Below are positions 7,303 to 62,537 of a stretch of DNA of 64,000 nucleotides, piece by piece (within the stretch, counting starts at the first letter, position 1; the number at the start of each line of letters is the position of its first letter). The translations under genes and the position numbers were made by a program. The notes beneath the pieces are model-generated. The model was not told the DNA's origin. It saw only the letters and a list, made by a program, of their open reading frames with translations, and ran no database searches. Source of the DNA: Bacteroidaceae bacterium (lineage in GTDB: Bacteria > Bacteroidota > Bacteroidia > Bacteroidales > Bacteroidaceae); NCBI GenBank assembly GCA_017469525.1, contig JAFUGG010000013.1, positions 124,001 to 188,000 of the forward strand, read 5' to 3'.

Positions 7303-7324
7303 CAGGGCAAAACATGAGTTGAGA

Positions 7325-7429
7325 GGTTAGTAGTTAGAGGTTAGTGGTTAGAGAATACCACAGGTCCTCTATAGTCAGCAGCCAAAAACATTCCTCTAAC
7401 CCCTAACCTCTAACCTCTAACCACTAATA
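7325..7429 (+). repeat. Inverted blocks of 7-nt repeats (GGTTAGA / TCTAACC) in the ilvE leader
   Basis: The left block 7325-7352 reads GGTTAGT, AGTTAGA, GGTTAGT, GGTTAGA. The right block 7395-7429 reads TCTAACC, CCTAACC, TCTAACC, TCTAACC, ACTAATA. The two blocks are complementary and about 42 nt apart, so a leader transcript could fold into a long hairpin just before the ilvE start codon. Confidence 0.75.
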
Positions 7430-18484: not shown

Positions 18485-18586
18485 CGCCACACGTCTAATC
18501 GCATTTTCTCACACGTGAGACAAAGTTTTCTCACACGTGAGACAAGGATTTCTCACACGTGAGACAAACCAACTTCACACGTCAAA
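18485..18586. repeat. 22-nt-pitch palindrome array B (3 full and 2 flanking degenerate units)
   Basis: Three identical units TCTCACACGTGAGA at 18507-18520, 18529-18542 and 18551-18564. In exact 22-nt phase on either side lie degenerate units that keep the CACACGT core (18485-18498 and 18573-18586). The unit is the same as in array A, 16 kb away. Intergenic, between recR and a small membrane protein. Confidence 0.9.
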
Positions 18587-35272: not shown

Positions 35273-37417
35273 TCAACTATGGACTGCTTTCATGCTTAAC
35301 GAGATTCTTTCCCTCTGCAAATCAACTCCGACAACGCGAACCATTACCTGTTGTTGCACTTTTACAACGGTTGTAGGGTCTTTCACGTAGTGGTCGGCAA
35401 GTTGCGAGACATGCACCAAGCCCTTGGTATGCACGCCAATATCGACGAAGGCGCCAAAGTTCGTGATGTTTGTCACGATGCCTGGCAGAATCATTCCCTC
35501 GCGAAGGTCGCCTATCTCATGAACTGTTGGGTCGAAAGCAAAGGCATGCAAGGGCTGACGAGGGTCGAGTCCTGGTTTGTCGAGCTCAGTCATGATGTCT
35601 TTCAACGTTGGCAGACCAACATCATCACTAACGTATTGTTCGATGTTTATCTTGTCTCTCAACGACTTATCAGCCATCAGTTCCGCCACAGAACACTTCT
35701 GGTCGCGAGCCATTCGCTCCACCAACTCATATCTCTCGGGGTGAACTGCGCTGTTATCGAGCGGCTCTGTCCCGCCTTTTATGCGAAGGAAACCAGCCGA
35801 TTGCTCGAAGGCTTTGGCACCCAATCGCGGCACTTTCATCAACTCTTTACGAGAGCGGAAAGGCCCATTCTCACGTCGATAGCGAACGATATTCTGGGCA
35901 AGCGAAGGTCCGAGGCCGCTCACGTAAGTCAACAGCCACTGCGAAGCCGTATTGAGGTTCACGCCAACTCTGTTCACGCAATTAATGACGGTATCTTCGA
36001 GGCTCTTTCTGAGAGCCGTTTGATTGACGTCTTTCTGGTACTGACCCACGCCGATGCTGGACGGATCTATCTTGACGAGTTCTGCAAGAGGGTCCATCAA
36101 GCGACGACCTATGCTGACAGCTCCGCGAACGGTTACATCCTCGTTGGGGAACTCTTCCCGTGCAATCTCGCTGGCACTATAGATGCTGGCACCGTCTTCG
36201 CTCACGCTATAAACCTCCACATTATCGGGAAGGTCGAGGTGACGCACGAAGTCCTCTGTCTCTCGACCAGCTGTTCCGTTGCCGATACTGATGGCTTGCA
36301 CGCCATATTTCTCGACAAGATTCTGAACGGTCAGCATCGCCTTAACGCGCTCAGCACGAGGTGGATGCGGGAAGATGACGTCGTGGTGCAGCAGATTGCC
36401 TTCTGCATCGAGGCATACCACCTTGCATCCTGTTCGGAAGCCGGGGTCGATTGCCATCACACGCTTCTGTCCGAGGGGCGAAGCCATGAGCAGTTGTTCC
36501 AGATTACTAACGAAGACTCGAATGGCTTCGGCATCTGCTTTCTGCTTGGACGAAGCACCAAACTCGTTCGAGATGCTGGGCTCGAGGAGTCTCTTGTAAC
36601 CGTCCTTGACAGCTTCCTGCACAGCTCTGCTGCACTCATTATTGCCTCTCACGAACTGACGGGCGATTCGTTCCATTGCCGGCTCATCGTCAACACAGAT
36701 CGAGACACGCAGGATGCCTTCTGCCTCACCCCTTCGCATAGCCAGCAAACGATGGCTGGAGCAGCGTTTCAGGGGTTCCGTCCAGTCGAAGTAATCGCGA
36801 TAATTCTGGCCTTCAACGTCTTTGCCTTTGATGACTTTGCTCTGAATCTGAGCATGAATCGAGAAGGTAGTTCGCAGCGTTTGCCTTGCACGTTCGTCCT
36901 CGCTCACGCGTTCAGCAATAATATCCTTTGCGCCCTGAAGAGCCTCTTCCTCGCTAAGTTTGGCTCCCTCCTTGTCATTTTTAATTTTTAATTGTTCATT
37001 TTTAATTAACACCTTCAATGGTGTTGACGGTTGTCGCAGGATGGCATCGGCAAGCGGCTCCAGTCCGGCTTCTCGAGCGACCTGAGCACGAGTGCGACGC
37101 TTCTGCTTGTAGGGCAGATAGATATCTTCCAGAGTGGTCTCGTCCCAACATTCCTCAATACGGCTTCGCAGTTCTGGTGTGAGCTTTCCCTGAGCCTCTA
37201 TCGTCGTGAGAATGAACTCCTTGCGATGCTCCAACTCGTTCACGTTATCGAGTTCAGCAGCCACTTGAGCGACCTCAACATCCGTCATTCCGCCAGTTGC
37301 TTCCTTGCGGTAGCGGCTGATGAAGGGCACAGTAGCCCCTTCCTGCAGCAAATCGACGACTTGCCGCACATATTTCTCCTTGAGTCCAGTTCGCTCAGCA
37401 ATCAGATTGTAGTTCAT
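35273..37417 (-). CDS. tex: Tex family RNA-binding transcription accessory protein
   Basis: 714 residues from ATG 37417 (MNYNLIAERTGLKEKYVRQV); an upstream TTG lies next to the promoter. Domains: N-terminal helical Tex domain (PFISRYRKEATGGMTDVEVA), YqgF-like RNase H fold (MAIDPGFRTGCKVVCLDAEG, about 320-339), helix-hairpin-helix repeats (LRIKGGTEPLDNSAVHPERY nearby) and a C-terminal S1 domain (GMILPGIVTNITNFGAFVDI). Residues about 136-150 (VLIKNEQLKIKNDKE) come from an inserted 7-nt repeat. Tex acts on transcription and RNA quality; the exact role here is unknown. Confidence 0.94.
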   Translation of the reverse strand: MNYNLIAERTGLKEKYVRQVVDLLQEGATVPFISRYRKEATGGMTDVEVAQVAAELDNVNELEHRKEFILTTIEAQGKLTPELRSRIEECWDETTLEDIYLPYKQKRRTRAQVAREAGLEPLADAILRQPSTPLKVLIKNEQLKIKNDKEGAKLSEEEALQGAKDIIAERVSEDERARQTLRTTFSIHAQIQSKVIKGKDVEGQNYRDYFDWTEPLKRCSSHRLLAMRRGEAEGILRVSICVDDEPAMERIARQFVRGNNECSRAVQEAVKDGYKRLLEPSISNEFGASSKQKADAEAIRVFVSNLEQLLMASPLGQKRVMAIDPGFRTGCKVVCLDAEGNLLHHDVIFPHPPRAERVKAMLTVQNLVEKYGVQAISIGNGTAGRETEDFVRHLDLPDNVEVYSVSEDGASIYSASEIAREEFPNEDVTVRGAVSIGRRLMDPLAELVKIDPSSIGVGQYQKDVNQTALRKSLEDTVINCVNRVGVNLNTASQWLLTYVSGLGPSLAQNIVRYRRENGPFRSRKELMKVPRLGAKAFEQSAGFLRIKGGTEPLDNSAVHPERYELVERMARDQKCSVAELMADKSLRDKINIEQYVSDDVGLPTLKDIMTELDKPGLDPRQPLHAFAFDPTVHEIGDLREGMILPGIVTNITNFGAFVDIGVHTKGLVHVSQLADHYVKDPTTVVKVQQQVMVRVVGVDLQRERISLSMKAVHS
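36976..37010. repeat. 35-nt (5 x 7) repeat block inside tex
   Basis: CATTTTT, AATTTTT, AATTGTT, CATTTTT, AATTAAC on the plus strand. Read from the minus strand it encodes LIKNEQLKIKN inside Tex, in a loop before GAKLSEEEALQGAKD. It is far more A/T-rich than the flanking coding DNA. Confidence 0.8.
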
Positions 37418-37447: not shown

Positions 37448-37626
37448 CGAATTTTAATTGAAAATTAAAAACCGAACCTCGAAAAAAGTTCAATTAATTG
37501 TGTCGAATCACTCCATAATGAATGGAATAATTCTTTACAAATCGTGGTACGTTATTTTACTCAAAATGTTGTAAAGATTTTTTCCTGATGTCAACTTTTG
37601 CGGATCGAAACAAGGAAATTTCAAAC

Positions 37627-37704
37627 TTCACACGTGAACTTTTCCAACTCGACACGTCGATTTTGCAAACTTCACACGTCGAGTTGAGTGTTTCGACACG
37701 TCGA
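37627..37704. repeat. 22-nt-pitch palindrome array D (4 units)
   Basis: TTCAC-AC-GTGAA (37627-37638), TCGAC-AC-GTCGA (37649-37660), TTCAC-AC-GTCGA (37671-37682), TCGAC-AC-GTCGA (37693-37704). The centres are exactly 22 nt apart. Two half-sites, TTCAC and TCGAC, are combined in three ways. The array lies in the 762-nt divergent gap between tex and the surface protein gene; the rest of this gap (to 38179) is A/T-rich and I see no gene in it. Confidence 0.92.
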
Positions 37705-38179: not shown

Positions 38180-41100
38180 ATGAAAAAACAATTCTTTAGC
38201 CTTGCTCTCTTCGCAGCAGCATGGCTCGCAGGCGGCTCCGTCCAAGCATGGGACGAGCCAACACAAGTAGATGACGTTTATCAGATTGGTACTGCATCTG
38301 AACTAGAGTGGTTTGCTGAGTACGTCAACTCTGTAACAGGTAATGATGATCCAGACAAAGAAGCTAAGCTTAATGCGCAAGCTGTCTTGACGGCAGACAT
38401 CAACTTGACTGGCATCGACCACAGTCCAATTGGTCGTTACACAAACGAGAGTGGCGCTGTCATCGACACCTACAAGTTCTCTGGCAAATTCGACGGACAG
38501 TTCCACACCATCAGCAATCTGGTGATTGTCCGTCCTGATGACGAGGCACTTGGTCTCTTCGGCTTCTGCCGTGGCAATGCCAAAATCAAAAACATCATCA
38601 TGGATTCCACATGCTCCATCAAAGGTAAGAATCGCATCGGCTCTATCGTCGGCCTTATCCAGACCAATACTGGCGCAAGCGATGGACTTGAGATTCTCAA
38701 CTGTGTCAGCTATGCAACACTTACCACAACCTCGGGTGCAGCAGGCATGATTGGCGCCGGTTGCGAACAGTATCCCTACTTTGATATGGAGAACTGCGTG
38801 AATGCAGGTGCCGTTAATGCAGTCAACAAAGGTACTGCTTTCTGCGGATGGAACAAGTCTGCTGGCGGCAATGCCAGAATGTGGAACTGCCTCAACATTG
38901 CAGAGATTAGCGTTTTGGACGGCGGTAATCAGCTCTTCCGCGGCCAGAACCGTTCTATTGCCAACTGCTACGACACCTTCCACAGCGGCAGCAGTTTCCA
39001 GGGCGAGCACCCCACATACGTGACAGCCGATCCTTTGCACAGCGGCGAGATTTGCTACCTGCTGAACACCGCTCTTCGCAGCGACCTCGCAGAACAGGCC
39101 AATCCTAATGCTCATCCTTTCACTCAGGACCTTTCTGATCCTAACTCTATTCCTCTTCCAATCCCCGGTCCCACTGTATATCAGGTTGCTGATCTCGACT
39201 GTGCTGGCAATCCCAAAGGCGGTGTAACATACAGCAACACCGACGGCGGCTCTCGGGATGCTCACAACTACGACCCTGCAACAGGCCTTTGCACAGTTTG
39301 CTCTGCTCCCAAGGTTGACTGGATGAGTGCAGAAGATGACGGTTTCTTCTATCTTGGCACACCTGTTCAGGTAGAGTGGTTCTCCGCAATGGTTAGAGCT
39401 GGTTACGGCGCAATGAATGCCAAACTGACTGCCGACATCGACTATCAAAGTGTGCCCGACGCTCACCGTCCCATCGGAACAAGTGGCAAGAAGTACTTCG
39501 GTCACTTCGACGGTCAGGGCCATCGCATCAAGGGCATGGTGCTGACAACTGCCAGCAGACTCGACAACCGCGGCTACGACGGCAACGGCTTCTTCGGTTC
39601 TGTTCGCGGTGGCGGTACATCTGTTGATAACATTTATACAAACGAAGTCATCATCGAGAACCTCATCATCGACAGCTCTTGCTCCATTCAGCACGACAAC
39701 AACTTCGCAGCAGGCGTTGTGGCTCACATCAACAGCCGCAACGACGAGAACAGCAACATCATCATCCGTAACTGCGGCAACGAGGCAAACGTCAGCTCAA
39801 CTGGCAAGAACATTGCTGGCATCCTTGGCTGTGTAGAGGCAACAAACGTTGGTCTGAAGCTCTACAACCTCTGGAACAAGGGTAACATCACAGGCAACGG
39901 TGGCGAGAGTGCTGCTATCTGTGCTTGGACCGGTCAGCGCAATGTTGACGGCGAAGTTGACGTTGAGGGCTGCTGGAACATTGGTGAAGTAACAGGCATT
40001 GATGCAAACCACTACAATATGATCCGTCGCAACACTAACATCGTTCCTCGCAACATTGTTGACCTTTGCATTGCAAACGGCACCAATGGTGGCAATCAAG
40101 GCACTGTTGCTGTTCACAATACAGAAAATCCCATCTCAAGTGGTGAGTTATGTTATCTCTTGAACGGAGACCAGTCAACCATCGTTTACACCCAAACGCT
40201 TGGTACTGACGCAATGCCCGTATATGGCACGACTTCCTCGCAGGTTTATCAGGCAGGTACTGTTAACTGTATTGGCGCTGCCGTAGGTGGCATTAATTAT
40301 AATAATGTAAGTGGAGAGACCACCACACTTCCTCACGACATTTCCGACGAGATTGGTATGTGCTCAGTCTGCTACACGCAGTTCCAAGAGCCTGCACTCG
40401 TTGACGGCTACTATGAAATCAAGAATGCTGGCAACGTTGAATGGCTCTCTGCAGCAGTCGCTAATGGTGGTGGTAACTTAGTAATCAAGGCCAAACTGAT
40501 GAACGACATCGACTTCCTTAACCGTGAAAACCTACATAGCCCCATCGGTCCTTCAACAGGCACCAAGTTCAAGGGCGAATTCGACGGTCAGGGCTTCCGC
40601 ATCAAAAATATGACTATCGAGCGTCCCTCTGATAGCAATATCGGCTTCTTCGGTTTTTTGCAGGGTAATGCAGCCACAACGGTTAAGAACTTAATTATTG
40701 ATAGTTCATGCACAATACATGGCTACAATCGCGTAGGTGGCATCACGGGCAGCTGTCAGAACAACGGTGCCCTCATCACGCTCGAGAACATCGTCAACGA
40801 AGCCACCATCATCGCCGAACATCAGGATGCAGCCGGCATCATCGGCGGCCAGGAAGGCAACGCCCCGAAGTGGCTCATCAAAAACGTGCTGAACACAGGC
40901 ACCGTTACTGCAAAGAACACGGCTCCCTTTGCCGGTGCTCTCTGCTGCTTCCTTGGTAAAAATAACGAGAGCGTCATAGAGAACTTCGTGAACCTCGGAA
41001 CTATCAACGGCCACATGGGCGGCAACATAGGCCGCATCTTCGGCACTTATTCCAATGTTATAGATCTCTCTGATACTAATCCTGAGGGCACCAAGCCTAT

Positions 41101-41863
41101 TGGGGAAAATGAAAGCGTTGGTAACATTGGCTTCGATACTGGTTTGACGAAGGATGACATTGCAAACGGTAAACTTGCTTGGTACATCAACAGCAAGGAC
41201 AATCAAGCTGCTGATGCCTTCTTCCAGCGTCTCGGTACTGGTGGTGAGGCATATCCTTCTCCATTCGGTGCAGCTGGTGTGCTCTACTTGGGCGAGACAG
41301 GTTACACAACTATGTACGACACCCAAAACAGTTGGTCGTTGAGTGCTGATGCTCAAGCTTATATTGGAAAAGAAAGTGGCAGTTCTCTAAGTCTTGTTGG
41401 AATCGATGATGTTCCTGCAGGAACTGCAGTTATCATCAAAGGCACTCCAAACAAATATTCTAATAAGGAGTTTGTTGCTACAACCACAGCCGATGTAACA
41501 GACAATGCACTTCAAGGTTCTGACGGCAATGTTACTGGCGACGGCTCTACAATCTTTGCTCTTTCAAATAAGGCCAACGGCGTTGGCTTCTATCCTGTAG
41601 GTGATGGTGTAACCATTCCCGCTGGCAAGGCTTATCTTAAATACACTAGCACTGGCGGCAACGCTGTTAAGGGCTTTACCTTCGTCTTCGACGAGGACGA
41701 TGCTACAGGCATAAGCCTGATGGAAGATGGAAGAAGTCAGATGGAAGACGGTGCCATCTACAACATTGCAGGTCAGCGCTTAGATAATTCACAATTCATA
41801 ATTCATAATTCACAATTGAAGCGTGGCATTTACATTGTGAACGGTAAAAAGATTTTGAAATAA
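38180..41863 (+). CDS. Large repetitive secreted surface protein
   Basis: 1227 residues. Signal peptide MKKQFFSLALFAAAWLAGGS with cleavage after about 24. Three long repeats start near residues 25, 375 and 735. Each has an ELEWFAEYVN-like entry, a tadIDl strand, then FDGQ-(F/G)-H/F-R-I and a GxxG...IxNLIIDSSCSI segment, which resembles GLUG-type beta-solenoid repeats. Repeats 1 and 2 each end with an H...G-x-C-x-V-C linker (GLCTVCSAPK; GMCSVCYTQF). A C-terminal region (about 1050-1227) ends in a GIYIVNGKKILK-type tail seen on many Prevotella surface proteins. An A/T-rich 35-nt repeat has entered the tail in frame. Function unknown; adhesion is possible. Confidence 0.75.
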   Translation: MKKQFFSLALFAAAWLAGGSVQAWDEPTQVDDVYQIGTASELEWFAEYVNSVTGNDDPDKEAKLNAQAVLTADINLTGIDHSPIGRYTNESGAVIDTYKFSGKFDGQFHTISNLVIVRPDDEALGLFGFCRGNAKIKNIIMDSTCSIKGKNRIGSIVGLIQTNTGASDGLEILNCVSYATLTTTSGAAGMIGAGCEQYPYFDMENCVNAGAVNAVNKGTAFCGWNKSAGGNARMWNCLNIAEISVLDGGNQLFRGQNRSIANCYDTFHSGSSFQGEHPTYVTADPLHSGEICYLLNTALRSDLAEQANPNAHPFTQDLSDPNSIPLPIPGPTVYQVADLDCAGNPKGGVTYSNTDGGSRDAHNYDPATGLCTVCSAPKVDWMSAEDDGFFYLGTPVQVEWFSAMVRAGYGAMNAKLTADIDYQSVPDAHRPIGTSGKKYFGHFDGQGHRIKGMVLTTASRLDNRGYDGNGFFGSVRGGGTSVDNIYTNEVIIENLIIDSSCSIQHDNNFAAGVVAHINSRNDENSNIIIRNCGNEANVSSTGKNIAGILGCVEATNVGLKLYNLWNKGNITGNGGESAAICAWTGQRNVDGEVDVEGCWNIGEVTGIDANHYNMIRRNTNIVPRNIVDLCIANGTNGGNQGTVAVHNTENPISSGELCYLLNGDQSTIVYTQTLGTDAMPVYGTTSSQVYQAGTVNCIGAAVGGINYNNVSGETTTLPHDISDEIGMCSVCYTQFQEPALVDGYYEIKNAGNVEWLSAAVANGGGNLVIKAKLMNDIDFLNRENLHSPIGPSTGTKFKGEFDGQGFRIKNMTIERPSDSNIGFFGFLQGNAATTVKNLIIDSSCTIHGYNRVGGITGSCQNNGALITLENIVNEATIIAEHQDAAGIIGGQEGNAPKWLIKNVLNTGTVTAKNTAPFAGALCCFLGKNNESVIENFVNLGTINGHMGGNIGRIFGTYSNVIDLSDTNPEGTKPIGENESVGNIGFDTGLTKDDIANGKLAWYINSKDNQAADAFFQRLGTGGEAYPSPFGAAGVLYLGETGYTTMYDTQNSWSLSADAQAYIGKESGSSLSLVGIDDVPAGTAVIIKGTPNKYSNKEFVATTTADVTDNALQGSDGNVTGDGSTIFALSNKANGVGFYPVGDGVTIPAGKAYLKYTSTGGNAVKGFTFVFDEDDATGISLMEDGRSQMEDGAIYNIAGQRLDNSQFIIHNSQLKRGIYIVNGKKILK
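41783..41817. repeat. 35-nt (5 x 7) repeat block inside the surface protein C-terminus
   Basis: GATAATT, CACAATT, CATAATT, CATAATT, CACAATT. It encodes the peptide NSQFIIHNSQL between GQRLD and KRGIYIVNG, that is, inside the conserved C-terminal tail. Confidence 0.85.
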
Positions 41864-44474: not shown

Positions 44475-44515
44475 CAAAGATACCAATAAAAGAGAAAAGT
44501 GAAAAGTGAAAAGTG
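44475..44515 (-). promoter_or_regulatory. -7 element for DUF3127 with 7-nt repeats upstream
   Basis: TATCTTTG on the minus strand at 44475-44482. The 7-nt units AAAAGAG, AAAAGTG x3 (44488-44515) occupy the space where the -33 region would be. Confidence 0.55.
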
Positions 44516-44554
44516 AAGAATTGTTTGTTTCATGCGTTTTTTTTATTCATTTTC

Positions 44555-45747: not shown

Positions 45748-46515
45748 ATGAAACTCAAGCTCGAGAAGCCCATCATCTTCTTCGACCTCGAGACGACTGG
45801 CCTCACGATAGGCAAGGACCACATTGTAGAGCTCTGCTACATACGCCTCGAGCCCAATGGCAACGAACGGGCTGAGACCATACGTTTCAACCCCGGCATC
45901 CATATCTCGAAGGAGAGCAGCGACATCCACGGCATCACGGACAGCGACGTGAAGGACTGTTCCACTTTTGCCGAGAAAGCAGAGGAACTGGCGAAAGTCT
46001 TTGAGGGCTGCGACTTGGCTGGCTACAACAGCAACCGCTTCGACGTGCCGATGCTTGCCGAGGAGTTCGCTCTCTGCGGCATCGACATACACATCAACGA
46101 AAGGCGTCTGGTTGATGTGCAGAACATCTTCCACAAGATGGAACAACGCACCCTCGTGGCTGCCTATAAGTTCTATTGCGGGAAGAACCTCGAGAATGCC
46201 CACAGTGCCCTGGCCGACACAAAAGCCACGCTCGAAGTACTCGAGGCACAGCTCGACAGATATTCAGAGCTCAAGAACGACGTCGCTTTCCTTGCCGACT
46301 TCAGCCAGCTTTTCCGAGGCGTTGACCTTGCCTTGCGATTTGTCTATGACGAGAACAATATCGAGATCATCAACTTCGGTAAGTACAAAGGACAAGCTGT
46401 GAAGGATGTACTCAAGAAAGACCCCAACTTCAAGCACTGGATGCTGCAAGGCGACTTTACGCACAACACGAAACAAACACTTGAACGACTCGCATTGAAG
46501 TATGCTGGAAAATAA
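45748..46515 (+). CDS. DnaQ-like 3'-5' exonuclease
   Basis: 255 residues. DEDDh motifs: IIFFDLETTGLTIGKDHIVE (Exo I, about 9-28), LAGYNSNRFDVPMLAEEFAL (Exo II, about 89-108) and AHSALADTKATLEVLEA (Exo III, about 151-167). The C-terminal part (NFGKYKGQAVKDVLKKDPNF) is a short extension found in the Bacteroidetes form. Probably proofreading or repair. It overlaps coaBC by 14 nt. Confidence 0.9.
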   Translation: MKLKLEKPIIFFDLETTGLTIGKDHIVELCYIRLEPNGNERAETIRFNPGIHISKESSDIHGITDSDVKDCSTFAEKAEELAKVFEGCDLAGYNSNRFDVPMLAEEFALCGIDIHINERRLVDVQNIFHKMEQRTLVAAYKFYCGKNLENAHSALADTKATLEVLEAQLDRYSELKNDVAFLADFSQLFRGVDLALRFVYDENNIEIINFGKYKGQAVKDVLKKDPNFKHWMLQGDFTHNTKQTLERLALKYAGK

Positions 46516-47701
46516 GAAGATATTACTTGGCATAACGGGAAGTATTGCTGCCTATAAAGCATGTCTTCTTGTTCGTCTGCTCATCAAGAAAGGAGCGGAG
46601 GTACAGGTTGTGATGACGCCTGCTGCAAAGGAATTCATCACGCCACTGACGCTCTCCACCTTGACGCAGAAGCCAGTCGTCAGCGAGTTCTTCGACCGCA
46701 GGGACGGCAGCTGGCATTCGCATGTCAACCTCGGCCTCTGGGCAGACGCCATGCTCATCGCTCCCGCTTCGGCAAGCACTATCGGAAAGATGGCAAATGG
46801 CATTGCCGACAACATGCTAGTCACAACTTATCTGAGCATGCGGGCACCTGTGTTTGTGGCTCCGGCAATGGACCTCGATATGTATGCCCATCCCTCCACG
46901 CAGGCCAACCTGCAGAAACTCATCGGCTACGGCAACCATATCATCGAACCGGTGACAGGTTTCCTTGCTTCAAAGCTGGAAGGCAAAGGTCGCATGGAAG
47001 AGCCGGAGAAGATTGTGGAAGCCCTGGAGCAGTTCTTTGCCAGCAGGCAAAGACTTTTGGGCAAGAAGGTGCTCATCACGGCAGGTCCCACCTACGAGAA
47101 GATTGACCCTGTCCGCTTCATCGGCAACTACAGCAGTGGTAAGATGGGATTTGCCCTGGCAGAAGTCTGTGCCGAGCAAGGAGCAGAGGTGACGCTCGTC
47201 AGCGGTCCTGTCATGTTGCAAGCAAAGCATCCCGGCATCAGGCGCATCGACGTGGAGAGTGCCCAGGAGATGTACGAGGCTGCGACGAAGCACTTCCCAA
47301 AGATGGACATCGCCATCCTCTGTGCTGCCGTGGCAGACTTCACACCCAAGACGACTGCCGACAAGAAGATAAAACGAAAGGGCGACAACCTGAAGCTCGA
47401 ACTTCAGCCCACGCAGGACATTGCCGCAGCCCTCGGTGCCATCAAGAAAAAGAAGCAGGTGTTGGTGGGCTTTGCCCTGGAGACGGACAACGAGCTCAAG
47501 AATGCCCAGGACAAGATGGAGCGCAAGAATTTCGACTTCATCGTCCTGAACAGCCTTCAGGACAAGGGAGCAGGCTTCCGTGTCGATACAAACAAGGTGA
47601 CCATCATAGACAAGCATCAGGGGCTTACCGCCTACGATACCAAGTCGAAACAGGAAGTGGCACGGGACATTATAGAACATCTGGTCAGGCAAATGAAATA
47701 A
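46502..47701 (+). CDS. coaBC: Bifunctional phosphopantothenoylcysteine decarboxylase / phosphopantothenate-cysteine ligase
   Basis: 399 residues. The N-terminal CoaC flavoprotein half has ILLGITGSIAAYKACLLVRL (about 6-25), IAPASASTIGKMANGIADNM and VFVAPAMDLDMYAHPSTQAN. The C-terminal CoaB half has LITAGPTYEKIDPVRFIGNY (about 198-217), SSGKMGFALAEVCAEQGAEV and FALETDNELKNAQDKMERKN. Two steps of coenzyme A synthesis. Close spacing on both sides suggests one transcript from dnaN. Confidence 0.95.
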   Translation: MLENKKILLGITGSIAAYKACLLVRLLIKKGAEVQVVMTPAAKEFITPLTLSTLTQKPVVSEFFDRRDGSWHSHVNLGLWADAMLIAPASASTIGKMANGIADNMLVTTYLSMRAPVFVAPAMDLDMYAHPSTQANLQKLIGYGNHIIEPVTGFLASKLEGKGRMEEPEKIVEALEQFFASRQRLLGKKVLITAGPTYEKIDPVRFIGNYSSGKMGFALAEVCAEQGAEVTLVSGPVMLQAKHPGIRRIDVESAQEMYEAATKHFPKMDIAILCAAVADFTPKTTADKKIKRKGDNLKLELQPTQDIAAALGAIKKKKQVLVGFALETDNELKNAQDKMERKNFDFIVLNSLQDKGAGFRVDTNKVTIIDKHQGLTAYDTKSKQEVARDIIEHLVRQMK

Positions 47702-47716
47702 TGAAAGAATGAGGAA

Positions 47717-48634
47717 ATGAATAAATTCAAGTATATCCTACTCTCGCTTCTTTGTTCAATGTTCAATGTTCAATGGTCAATGGTGAACGCTCAGGAGCTT
47801 GAGGCACGTGTGACCATCAATCATACACAGATTGAGGCCACGCGCACCGAAGTGTTCGATGCCTTGCAGACAAAGCTGACCGACTTCCTCAACAACCATA
47901 AGTGGACGGAGATACCCTTCCGTGAGAACGAGAAGATACAGTGCAACTTCAACATCACGGTCAATACTTACAAACAAGAGGAGAACACCTTTGAATGCAC
48001 TTTGCTGATGAACTGCAGCCGGCCCGTCTATGGTAGCACATACAACACGGTGACCTATGCTGTGAACGACGGTAACTTCACCTTCGAGTTCTCAGAGTTC
48101 GACCAACTTGAATACCAGGAGAACCAAATTGACAACAACCTCGTGGCTCTCCTTGCCTACTATGCCTATATGATAATCGGCATGGACCTCGACACGATGG
48201 CCCTGAAGGGAGGAACTGACTGTTTCCACGTTGCCGAGGACATTGCCACGGCTGGCGAGAATATGGGCTTCCCGGGGTGGAAAGCATTCGGCGACAGCGG
48301 TAACCGTTTCGGCCTGCTGAACGACTACATGGACGGCTCGATGGAGTGCATGCGCGAGTTCAATTATATCTATCATCGCAAGGGCCTCGACCGCATGGCA
48401 GAGGTTCCCGACAGTGCCCGCGCCACCATTGCCGATGCGCTGGAACTGCTTCATGAAGCCAATACGGCCAAGAATATGACCCGCGTGGCACAACTCTTCA
48501 CTGAGTACAAGCGCAACGAGCTTGTGAACATCTTCGAGAAGAAAGGCACACGCGAGGAGAAGGACAAAGCCTACGAAATACTCTTTGCCATCGATGCCTC
48601 ACAAAGCAACGAATGGGATAAGATAAAGAAGTAA
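47717..48634 (+). CDS. DUF4835 family exported protein
   Basis: 305 residues. The DUF4835 pattern is clear: QELEARVTINHTQIEATRTE, FLNNHKWTEIPFRENEKIQC, DQLEYQENQIDNNLVALLAY, AYMIIGMDLDTMALKGGTDC and LDRMAEVPDSARATIADALE. The core of the signal peptide (CSMFNVQWSMVNA) is not ordinary: it is read from five copies of a 7-nt repeat (47754-47788) and ends in an AxA-like cleavage site. The family is widespread in Bacteroidetes and found beside coaBC, as here; function unknown. Confidence 0.88.
   Translation: MNKFKYILLSLLCSMFNVQWSMVNAQELEARVTINHTQIEATRTEVFDALQTKLTDFLNNHKWTEIPFRENEKIQCNFNITVNTYKQEENTFECTLLMNCSRPVYGSTYNTVTYAVNDGNFTFEFSEFDQLEYQENQIDNNLVALLAYYAYMIIGMDLDTMALKGGTDCFHVAEDIATAGENMGFPGWKAFGDSGNRFGLLNDYMDGSMECMREFNYIYHRKGLDRMAEVPDSARATIADALELLHEANTAKNMTRVAQLFTEYKRNELVNIFEKKGTREEKDKAYEILFAIDASQSNEWDKIKK
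47754..47788 (+). repeat. 35-nt (5 x 7) repeat block forming a signal peptide
   Basis: GTTCAAT, GTTCAAT, GTTCAAT, GGTCAAT, GGTGAAC. It encodes the hydrophobic segment and part of the cleavage region of the DUF4835 protein's signal peptide. Confidence 0.85.
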
Positions 48635-48996: not shown

Positions 48997-49172
48997 TAGC
49001 ATTCATGGCTCAAAGTAATAGCATTCATGGCTCAAAGTAATAGCATTCATGGCTCAAAGTAATAGCATTCATGGCTCAAAGTAATAGCATTCATGGCTCA
49101 AAGTATTAGCATTCATGGCTCAAAGTATTAGCATTCCTTTTGCAGCAAAGAGGTATCCCTTTTGCAGTGATG
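48997..49172. repeat. 22-nt tandem repeat array H (8 units)
   Basis: Four perfect copies of the 22-mer that begins TAGCATTCATGGCTCAAAGT (48997-49084), two copies with one change (49085-49128), then two units that keep the 22-nt phase but change sequence to a CCTTTTGCAG word (49136-49145 and 49158-49167). Located between convergent genes in the gene-free stretch 48635-49528. Confidence 0.92.
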
Positions 49173-53247: not shown

Positions 53248-53294
53248 AGTTATCGGTTCAAAGCTTTCTGCAAAGTTACGAAAAATAATAAAAT

Positions 53295-53322
53295 TATGAA
53301 TTATGAACTATGAATTATGAAC
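53295..53322. repeat. 7-nt tandem repeat, four units
   Basis: TATGAAT, TATGAAC, TATGAAT, TATGAAC, directly before the -7 element of the BamA/TamA-like gene. Same word family as 41783-41817. Confidence 0.7.
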
Positions 53323-56446: not shown

Positions 56447-56545
56447 GCAATGCGTTGCATCGGAATTTGCAACACCTTGAAAATAATTTGTAACACGTTG
56501 GAATTTCATTTGCAACACGTTGGAATTTTGCTTGCAACGTGTGTA
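56447..56545. repeat. 22-nt-pitch array F (5 units) upstream of rarA
   Basis: GCAAT-GC-GTTGC (56447-56458), GCAAC-AC-CTTGA (56469-56480), GTAAC-AC-GTTGG (56490-56501), GCAAC-AC-GTTGG (56512-56523), GCAAC-GT-GTGTA (56534-56545). Spacing is 22, 21, 22, 22. It fills the gap between the glycosyltransferase and the rarA promoter. Confidence 0.85.
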
Positions 56546-62465: not shown

Positions 62466-62537
62466 TGTTTGCACATACATGTAGATGCAATTGCATATAC
62501 ATGTAAATGCAATTGCATCTACATGTATGTGCAAACA
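62466..62537. repeat. 72-nt palindrome that is also a 22-nt-pitch array (G, 3 units)
   Basis: Arms of 31 nt (62466-62496 and 62507-62537) are perfectly complementary around a 10-nt centre, itself TACATGTA plus one mismatched pair. TACATGTA occurs at 62476-62483, 62498-62505 and 62520-62527, exactly 22 nt apart, with TGCAATTGCA halfway between (62486-62495, 62508-62517). It lies in the gene-free stretch 62414-62786, whose remainder is A/T-rich. Confidence 0.93.

Follow-up and report, generated by a model that had tools for sequence, protein, structure and literature searches.

Description of the locus

The window is the whole stretch of DNA analysed, 64,000 nucleotides from a member of the Bacteroidaceae. 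Its features are listed in Table 1. The product of the PorD gene is matched by PF16119 (DUF4835) with E=1e-99 and 333.6 bits (cut-off 25), and by NF052317, the NCBIfam equivalog of the type IX secretion (T9SS) protein PorD, with 340 bits (cut-off 170). PorD is present in 134 of 139 genomes of the genus. The SprA_N domain is found in the window genome (E=2.9e-220) and in none of 14 control genomes. SprA being a core component, the type IX secretion core is encoded by the window genome. The DUF4835 protein of Porphyromonas gingivalis appears in a listing as a hypothetical type IX component (PMC9722745).

Residues 1-25 of PorD are MNKFKYILLSLLCSMFNVQWSMVNA, followed by QEL. By inspection, a basic n-region (MNKFK), a hydrophobic stretch (YILLSLLCSMF) and a cleavage region (ending in VNA before QEL) are distinguished. 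By this layout, and with suitable residues at positions -3 and -1, the segment is predicted to be a Sec-type signal peptide (signal peptidase I).

Five 7-nt units are read within this peptide: GTTCAAT at 47754-47760, 47761-47767 and 47768-47774, GGTCAAT at 47775-47781 and GGTGAAC at 47782-47788. The period is exact over 23 nt, 47753-47775. TRF independently delimits a tract at 47753-47782 (period 7, 95% matches), in frame in the PorD ORF. None of 1000 shuffles that reorder the codons of the signal peptide reaches its lag-7 score of 22 (p=0.001). Markov-simulated contigs contain no arrays of this kind. The five units given for this signal peptide in a preliminary description are thus confirmed by direct reading, by TRF and by codon shuffles. 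The same description had the array encode the core and the cleavage region, which is correct for residues 13-24 only. The hydrophobic core begins before the array, and YILLSLL (residues 6-12, about half of the core) lies outside it; C13 is partly inside and A25 outside. The array provides the last part of the core and the greater part of the cleavage region, neither of them in full. Likewise, the view that a non-coding repeat word has become an export signal is retained in part: a mostly non-coding word supplies a portion of the signal, not the whole. Export of the array-written protein is presumably normal.

Table 1. Genes and repeat features of the window (positions counted from its first nucleotide).
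Feature	Position	Strand	Basis
Second in-frame coding heptamer array, AATTCAC/AATTCAT, peptide NSQFIIHNSQL	41786..41817	+	C73:165786-165817
Intergenic heptamer array AAAAGTG (example; C73:168488)	44488..44517		TRF
Dfp/CoaBC-type flavoprotein gene (pantothenate metabolism), upstream neighbour of PorD	46502..47701	+	PF04127, PF02441
PorD/DUF4835 gene, 305 aa	47717..48634	+	PF16119 and NF052317 matches
Signal-peptide coding region of PorD	47717..47791	+	Read from sequence; orthologues with common QEL mature start
Five-unit heptamer array of PorD, residues 13-24	47754..47788	+	Direct reading, TRF, codon-shuffle p=0.001
Intergenic heptamer array AATTATG (example; C73:177292), 4 nt ahead of a called gene start	53292..53321		TRF

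Heptamer arrays of the genome

Arrays were counted in 716 kb of the window genome, sampled without regard to repeats. Period-7 arrays number 64, with none in simulations. Neighbouring periods are mostly represented by 0-5 arrays in the same sample; period 8 has 19 and period 9 has 12. Called coding sequence (598 kb) holds 17 of the 64 period-7 arrays and the remainder of the sample (119 kb) holds 47. In this genome, non-coding DNA holds period-7 arrays at more than 10 times the density of ordinary coding DNA. They are longer than chance predicts and belong to the heptanucleotide simple sequence repeats of bacteria. No period-7 arrays were found in 100 kb from each of two genomes that belong to other families of the order.

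The set of words is small. The 64 arrays use 24 distinct words; nulls made of random intergenic heptamers or of letter-permuted words always require at least 50. In the examined DNA of the window genome, 24 arrays belong to the GTTCAAT/GGTCAAT family, a count that is not a density, the sample having been chosen partly for holding such arrays. Their flanks are unrelated. A probe of three AATTATG units is distributed patchily; of 149 genomes from the order, 32 have a match. Assembly artefact was considered as a source of the arrays and rejected; arrays are conserved across separately assembled genomes, e.g. in MetH of L173, L174, L176 and L177.

Period-22 arrays form a second repeat class, distinct from the heptamers, with 93 period-22 segments in the 716 kb. 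Arrays of 22-bp units lie in the window at 2369-2457, 18504-18582, 37619-37680, 48997-49136, 56464-56538 and 62469-62534. Several of the units are near-palindromic, e.g. TTGCATATACATGTAAATGCAA. Arrays of GGTTAGN occur as inverted pairs about 20-45 nt apart (window 7317-7427, C73:16198/16267, L115:10429-10511). Six GGTTAG-type pairs are present in the 716 kb, one of them within a saccharopine dehydrogenase gene. An inverted array pair was also considered as the element behind the PorD array; by inspection, this array has no such partner.

Arrays within genes

Across five genomes of the genus, array density per 100 kb is 24.5 for signal-peptide DNA, 3.6 for the rest of the coding DNA and 40 for non-coding DNA. 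Signal-peptide DNA is about 7 times denser in arrays than other coding DNA. It holds 6 of the 53 coding arrays (binomial p=4e-4), signal peptides being called by a simple rule and the cases being few. Checked by eye, one of the six calls is false (an N-terminus resembling dihydrofolate reductase), and at least two real signal peptides are missed by the rule (the M16 peptidase of L103 and a protein of G017). The enrichment stands despite the false call, the missed ones and the small number. Signal peptides clearly written by arrays in the window genome are those of PorD, a LolA-like protein (MKRLTLLFILHFSLFTFHFAFAQ), a GH127 enzyme (MTKRAFLFFILHSSFFILSAQ) and an M16 peptidase (MKKLIILLCLGWSMVNGQWSMAQ).

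The majority of coding arrays lie outside signal peptides, within enzymes. Arrays are found in frame inside histidyl-tRNA synthetase, methionine synthase, saccharopine dehydrogenase and a YgiQ-type radical SAM protein, and also in a 4-alpha-glucanotransferase, where the array lies between the starch-binding domain and the catalytic domain. The second coding array of the window lies close to the C-terminal end of ORF 38180-41863 (1227 aa), whose start resembles a signal peptide.

This second array and the one at L117:2734-2754 occupy the same C-terminal point, just before an RGIYI motif. A weaker heptamer array, ATTTTTA (window 36977-37007), lies in a 714-aa ORF on the minus strand (35273-37417), presumably Tex. 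Methionine synthase carries arrays at two sites, depending on the species: near residue 119 in G012 (L235, contig C1, 13230-16883; array 106 nt long) and near residue 957 in the window genome (L125:12111-12142). Genome G062 (L255-L274) has many coding arrays, three of them in one 490-aa protein; some encode likely transmembrane segments (LLFTFHFSLFTFIVVFF).

Repeat words at one site in different species

PorD orthologues were collected from 40 relatives, from named rumen metagenome-assembled genomes and from the genus, giving 58 distinct sequences. The genomes compared are largely metagenome assemblies, one for each species, so the comparison shows variation between species only. Significant signal-peptide arrays are present in 14 of the 58 (0 of 400 codon shuffles equal; p<=0.0025). 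Among orthologues with a peptide of this kind, the majority have no array. At least seven unit words are used: GTTCAAT, TTGCTCC, TTATTAT and TTTTCAC with period 7, TTTTCACC with period 8, TCTATCTTCC with period 10, and GTTATC/GTTTTC with period 6 or its multiple. The period is 7, 8 or 10 in 12 of the 14 scoring arrays. Distant orthologues have ordinary signal peptides. The same peptide written in other codons in distant genera, as ordinary protein conservation would produce, is absent from this comparison, the distant signals being unrelated and ordinary and the near ones carrying different repeats.

In the tree built from the mature domain, species with an array lie scattered, and 11 state changes are needed, the array label here including three weaker arrays as well. 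L032 and L056 are sisters on this tree; their mature PorD DNA is 90% identical, and their signals are written in different words. L056 and L005 have a common word and signal peptide, and their mature domains fall in separate groups. This pair may reflect recombination or an older state that was retained.

Three units of GTTWWC were searched for in sampled genomes. They give 10-134 matches per genome in six genomes of the clade with hexamer arrays in its PorD signals, and 0-4 matches in nine other genomes. Words of the GTTCAAT type are abundant in both clades, so the match between PorD word and genomic dialect is demonstrated for the hexamer only. The linker of HisS is a further site with different words, carrying arrays of CTCTCAA, TTCACTC, AATTGTC or ATTCTTC according to species. 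The YgiQ array stands in for codons, and the net length of the protein is unchanged relative to its relatives.

Origin of the coding arrays

Repeat words of the genome probably enter permissive coding sites as frame-preserving replacements, the words differing by clade. The source would be the genomic population of arrays, mostly of 7-nt units and built from a limited set of words that differs between clades. Coding arrays would be tolerated mainly where almost any suitable peptide serves. Candidate sites are the core and cleavage region of Sec signals, loops, linkers between domains and certain segments that are likely to span the membrane. Words rich in T, among them GTTCAAT and TTTTCAC, are stop-free on one strand and yield fairly hydrophobic seven-residue repeats (SMFNVQC, FSLFTFH), three 7-nt units making 21 nt, or seven codons. 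Over the lifetime of species, one word may be swapped for another at a permissive site with the frame kept, the word used being one common elsewhere in the same genomes, at least in one clade. Because single-unit steps break the frame, including in the HisS gene, stepwise slippage is the less plausible route, and replacement would rather take its template from other arrays or proceed through transient misalignment (template switching or gene conversion). Selection would then remove arrays unless the peptide they encode can be tolerated. Signal peptides need only hydrophobicity and a small residue before the cut, which would explain an array density that approaches that of non-coding DNA. No intermediate stage of a word replacement was seen among the compared genomes. 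An activity that rewrites tandem arrays from one another throughout the genome is conceivable, although rather doubtful; it would maintain a small dialect in each clade, copy it to intergenic sites and, at tolerant places, to signal peptides, linkers and essential enzymes, and exchange whole segments of peptide with the frame unbroken.

The principal alternative is low constraint: each array would arise by independent local slippage, with no exchange between arrays, and the sharing of words would reflect a sequence preference of slippage. Signal peptides are in general poorly conserved, which suits this reading, as do seed words that adjoin arrays: in L032, CTTGCTCC lies next to the GTTCAAT-type array, and the close relative L056 has a TTGCTCC array. 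Independent births, however, predict varied words, and the 64 arrays share far fewer than the nulls. Slippage by 7, 8 or 10 nt also passes through broken frames, so that units of 3n would be expected, in contrast to the periods of the PorD arrays given above. The sharing could yet come from a slippage machinery that strongly prefers certain words; low constraint as a whole is considered unlikely, though a rival to be taken seriously. Chance composition would explain the repeats by the Leu, Phe and Ser codons of signal peptides, which do use few, T-rich codons. This is refuted by the composition-keeping shuffles, none of 1000 of which reaches the PorD score, and by the lack of arrays in most orthologues with the same kind of peptide. 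Insertion in frame of a mobile element with a defined body is suggested by the repeat-coded peptides inside unrelated conserved enzymes. The Rickettsia palindromic elements are of this type: they are palindromic, have a longer consensus and encode in-frame peptides at tolerant protein sites. The likeness ends with the in-frame repeat peptides. The 24 same-word arrays have only the short units in common, with unrelated flanks and no palindromic body, and the YgiQ array involves no net insertion. An element of this kind is hardly credible.

Phase variation was proposed in the preliminary description: slippage of 7-nt units would switch the gene on and off. Type IX secretion would then be switched with PorD. 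In favour of this reading, seven is not a multiple of three, a gain or loss of units (+1, -1, +2 or -2) truncates the PorD ORF to 20-30 aa, and SprA, a core component of type IX secretion, is present in the genome. The switching itself is not borne out. Only three units of the tract are perfect, and two are variants. The window genome and the nearest species, RUG606 and RUG11599, have five units each, differing by substitutions only, with no indel. None of the 134 PorD matches in the genus (one genome per species) has an internal stop. Many relatives have PorD signal peptides without an array, and arrays are also present in the HisS gene, where an OFF state is expected to be lethal. In neuO of E. 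coli K1, the closest precedent, a heptanucleotide repeat also lies in the 5' coding region; its unit number ranges over 3-53 and differs among isolates, and the frame is often lost, with 65.6% of genomes OFF (PMC13001214), whereas the five imperfect units of PorD are constant in three species and in frame. In the genomes compared, PorD does not look like a phase-variable locus of the neuO type, which has many perfect units, a varying unit number and out-of-frame alleles. Rare slippage may occur within populations, but on-off switching of PorD is very improbable. Replacement by words of the genome, as set out above, is the preferred explanation.

Comparison with known repeats

Long heptanucleotide simple sequence repeats of bacteria were surveyed by Mrazek et al. 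2007, summarised in PMC4679880. As far as this summary describes them, the surveyed repeats resemble the present arrays: units are of 5-11 nt with 7 dominant, occurrence is above expectation and location is mostly intergenic. Relative to that summary, the present arrays differ in occurring also in frame in conserved proteins, in being over-represented in signal-peptide DNA and in having words that vary by species at one site. Direct repeats of TAACTGA are known from Beggiatoaceae, Cyanobacteria and some Bacteroidetes (PMC4679880). They too are heptamers, mostly intergenic, with a few at protein ends; TAACTGA is one fixed word, whereas here many words, clade dialects and use in signal peptides and linkers are found. 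Heptanucleotide repeats of 13-38 units upstream of hmw1a/hmw2a of H. influenzae modulate expression (PMC2651432). Both these and the PorD array have 7-nt units tied to a surface function.

Significance

Heptamer repeats as such are known. What appears to be a new variation on them is that they serve again and again as replaceable segments of coding sequence, following the dialect in one clade; no description of recurrent coding heptamers in Bacteroidales was found in a limited literature search, with most subscription journals outside it. Bacterial heptamer repeats have so far been known as intergenic curiosities or on/off switches. Here they would be raw material for protein sequence: an export signal, the linker of a tRNA synthetase and loops of enzymes are written in the genome's own repeat words in uncultured rumen bacteria. 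The arrays offer a natural, countable system for the origin of new coding sequence from non-coding repeats and for the spread of words without a visible mobile element. Shared repeat-written signals can also lead homology searches to pair unrelated proteins. This was seen with the LolA-like protein (TTTTCAC array) as the query, which returned N-termini of unrelated proteins through its repeat-written signal, including that of PorD of G079.
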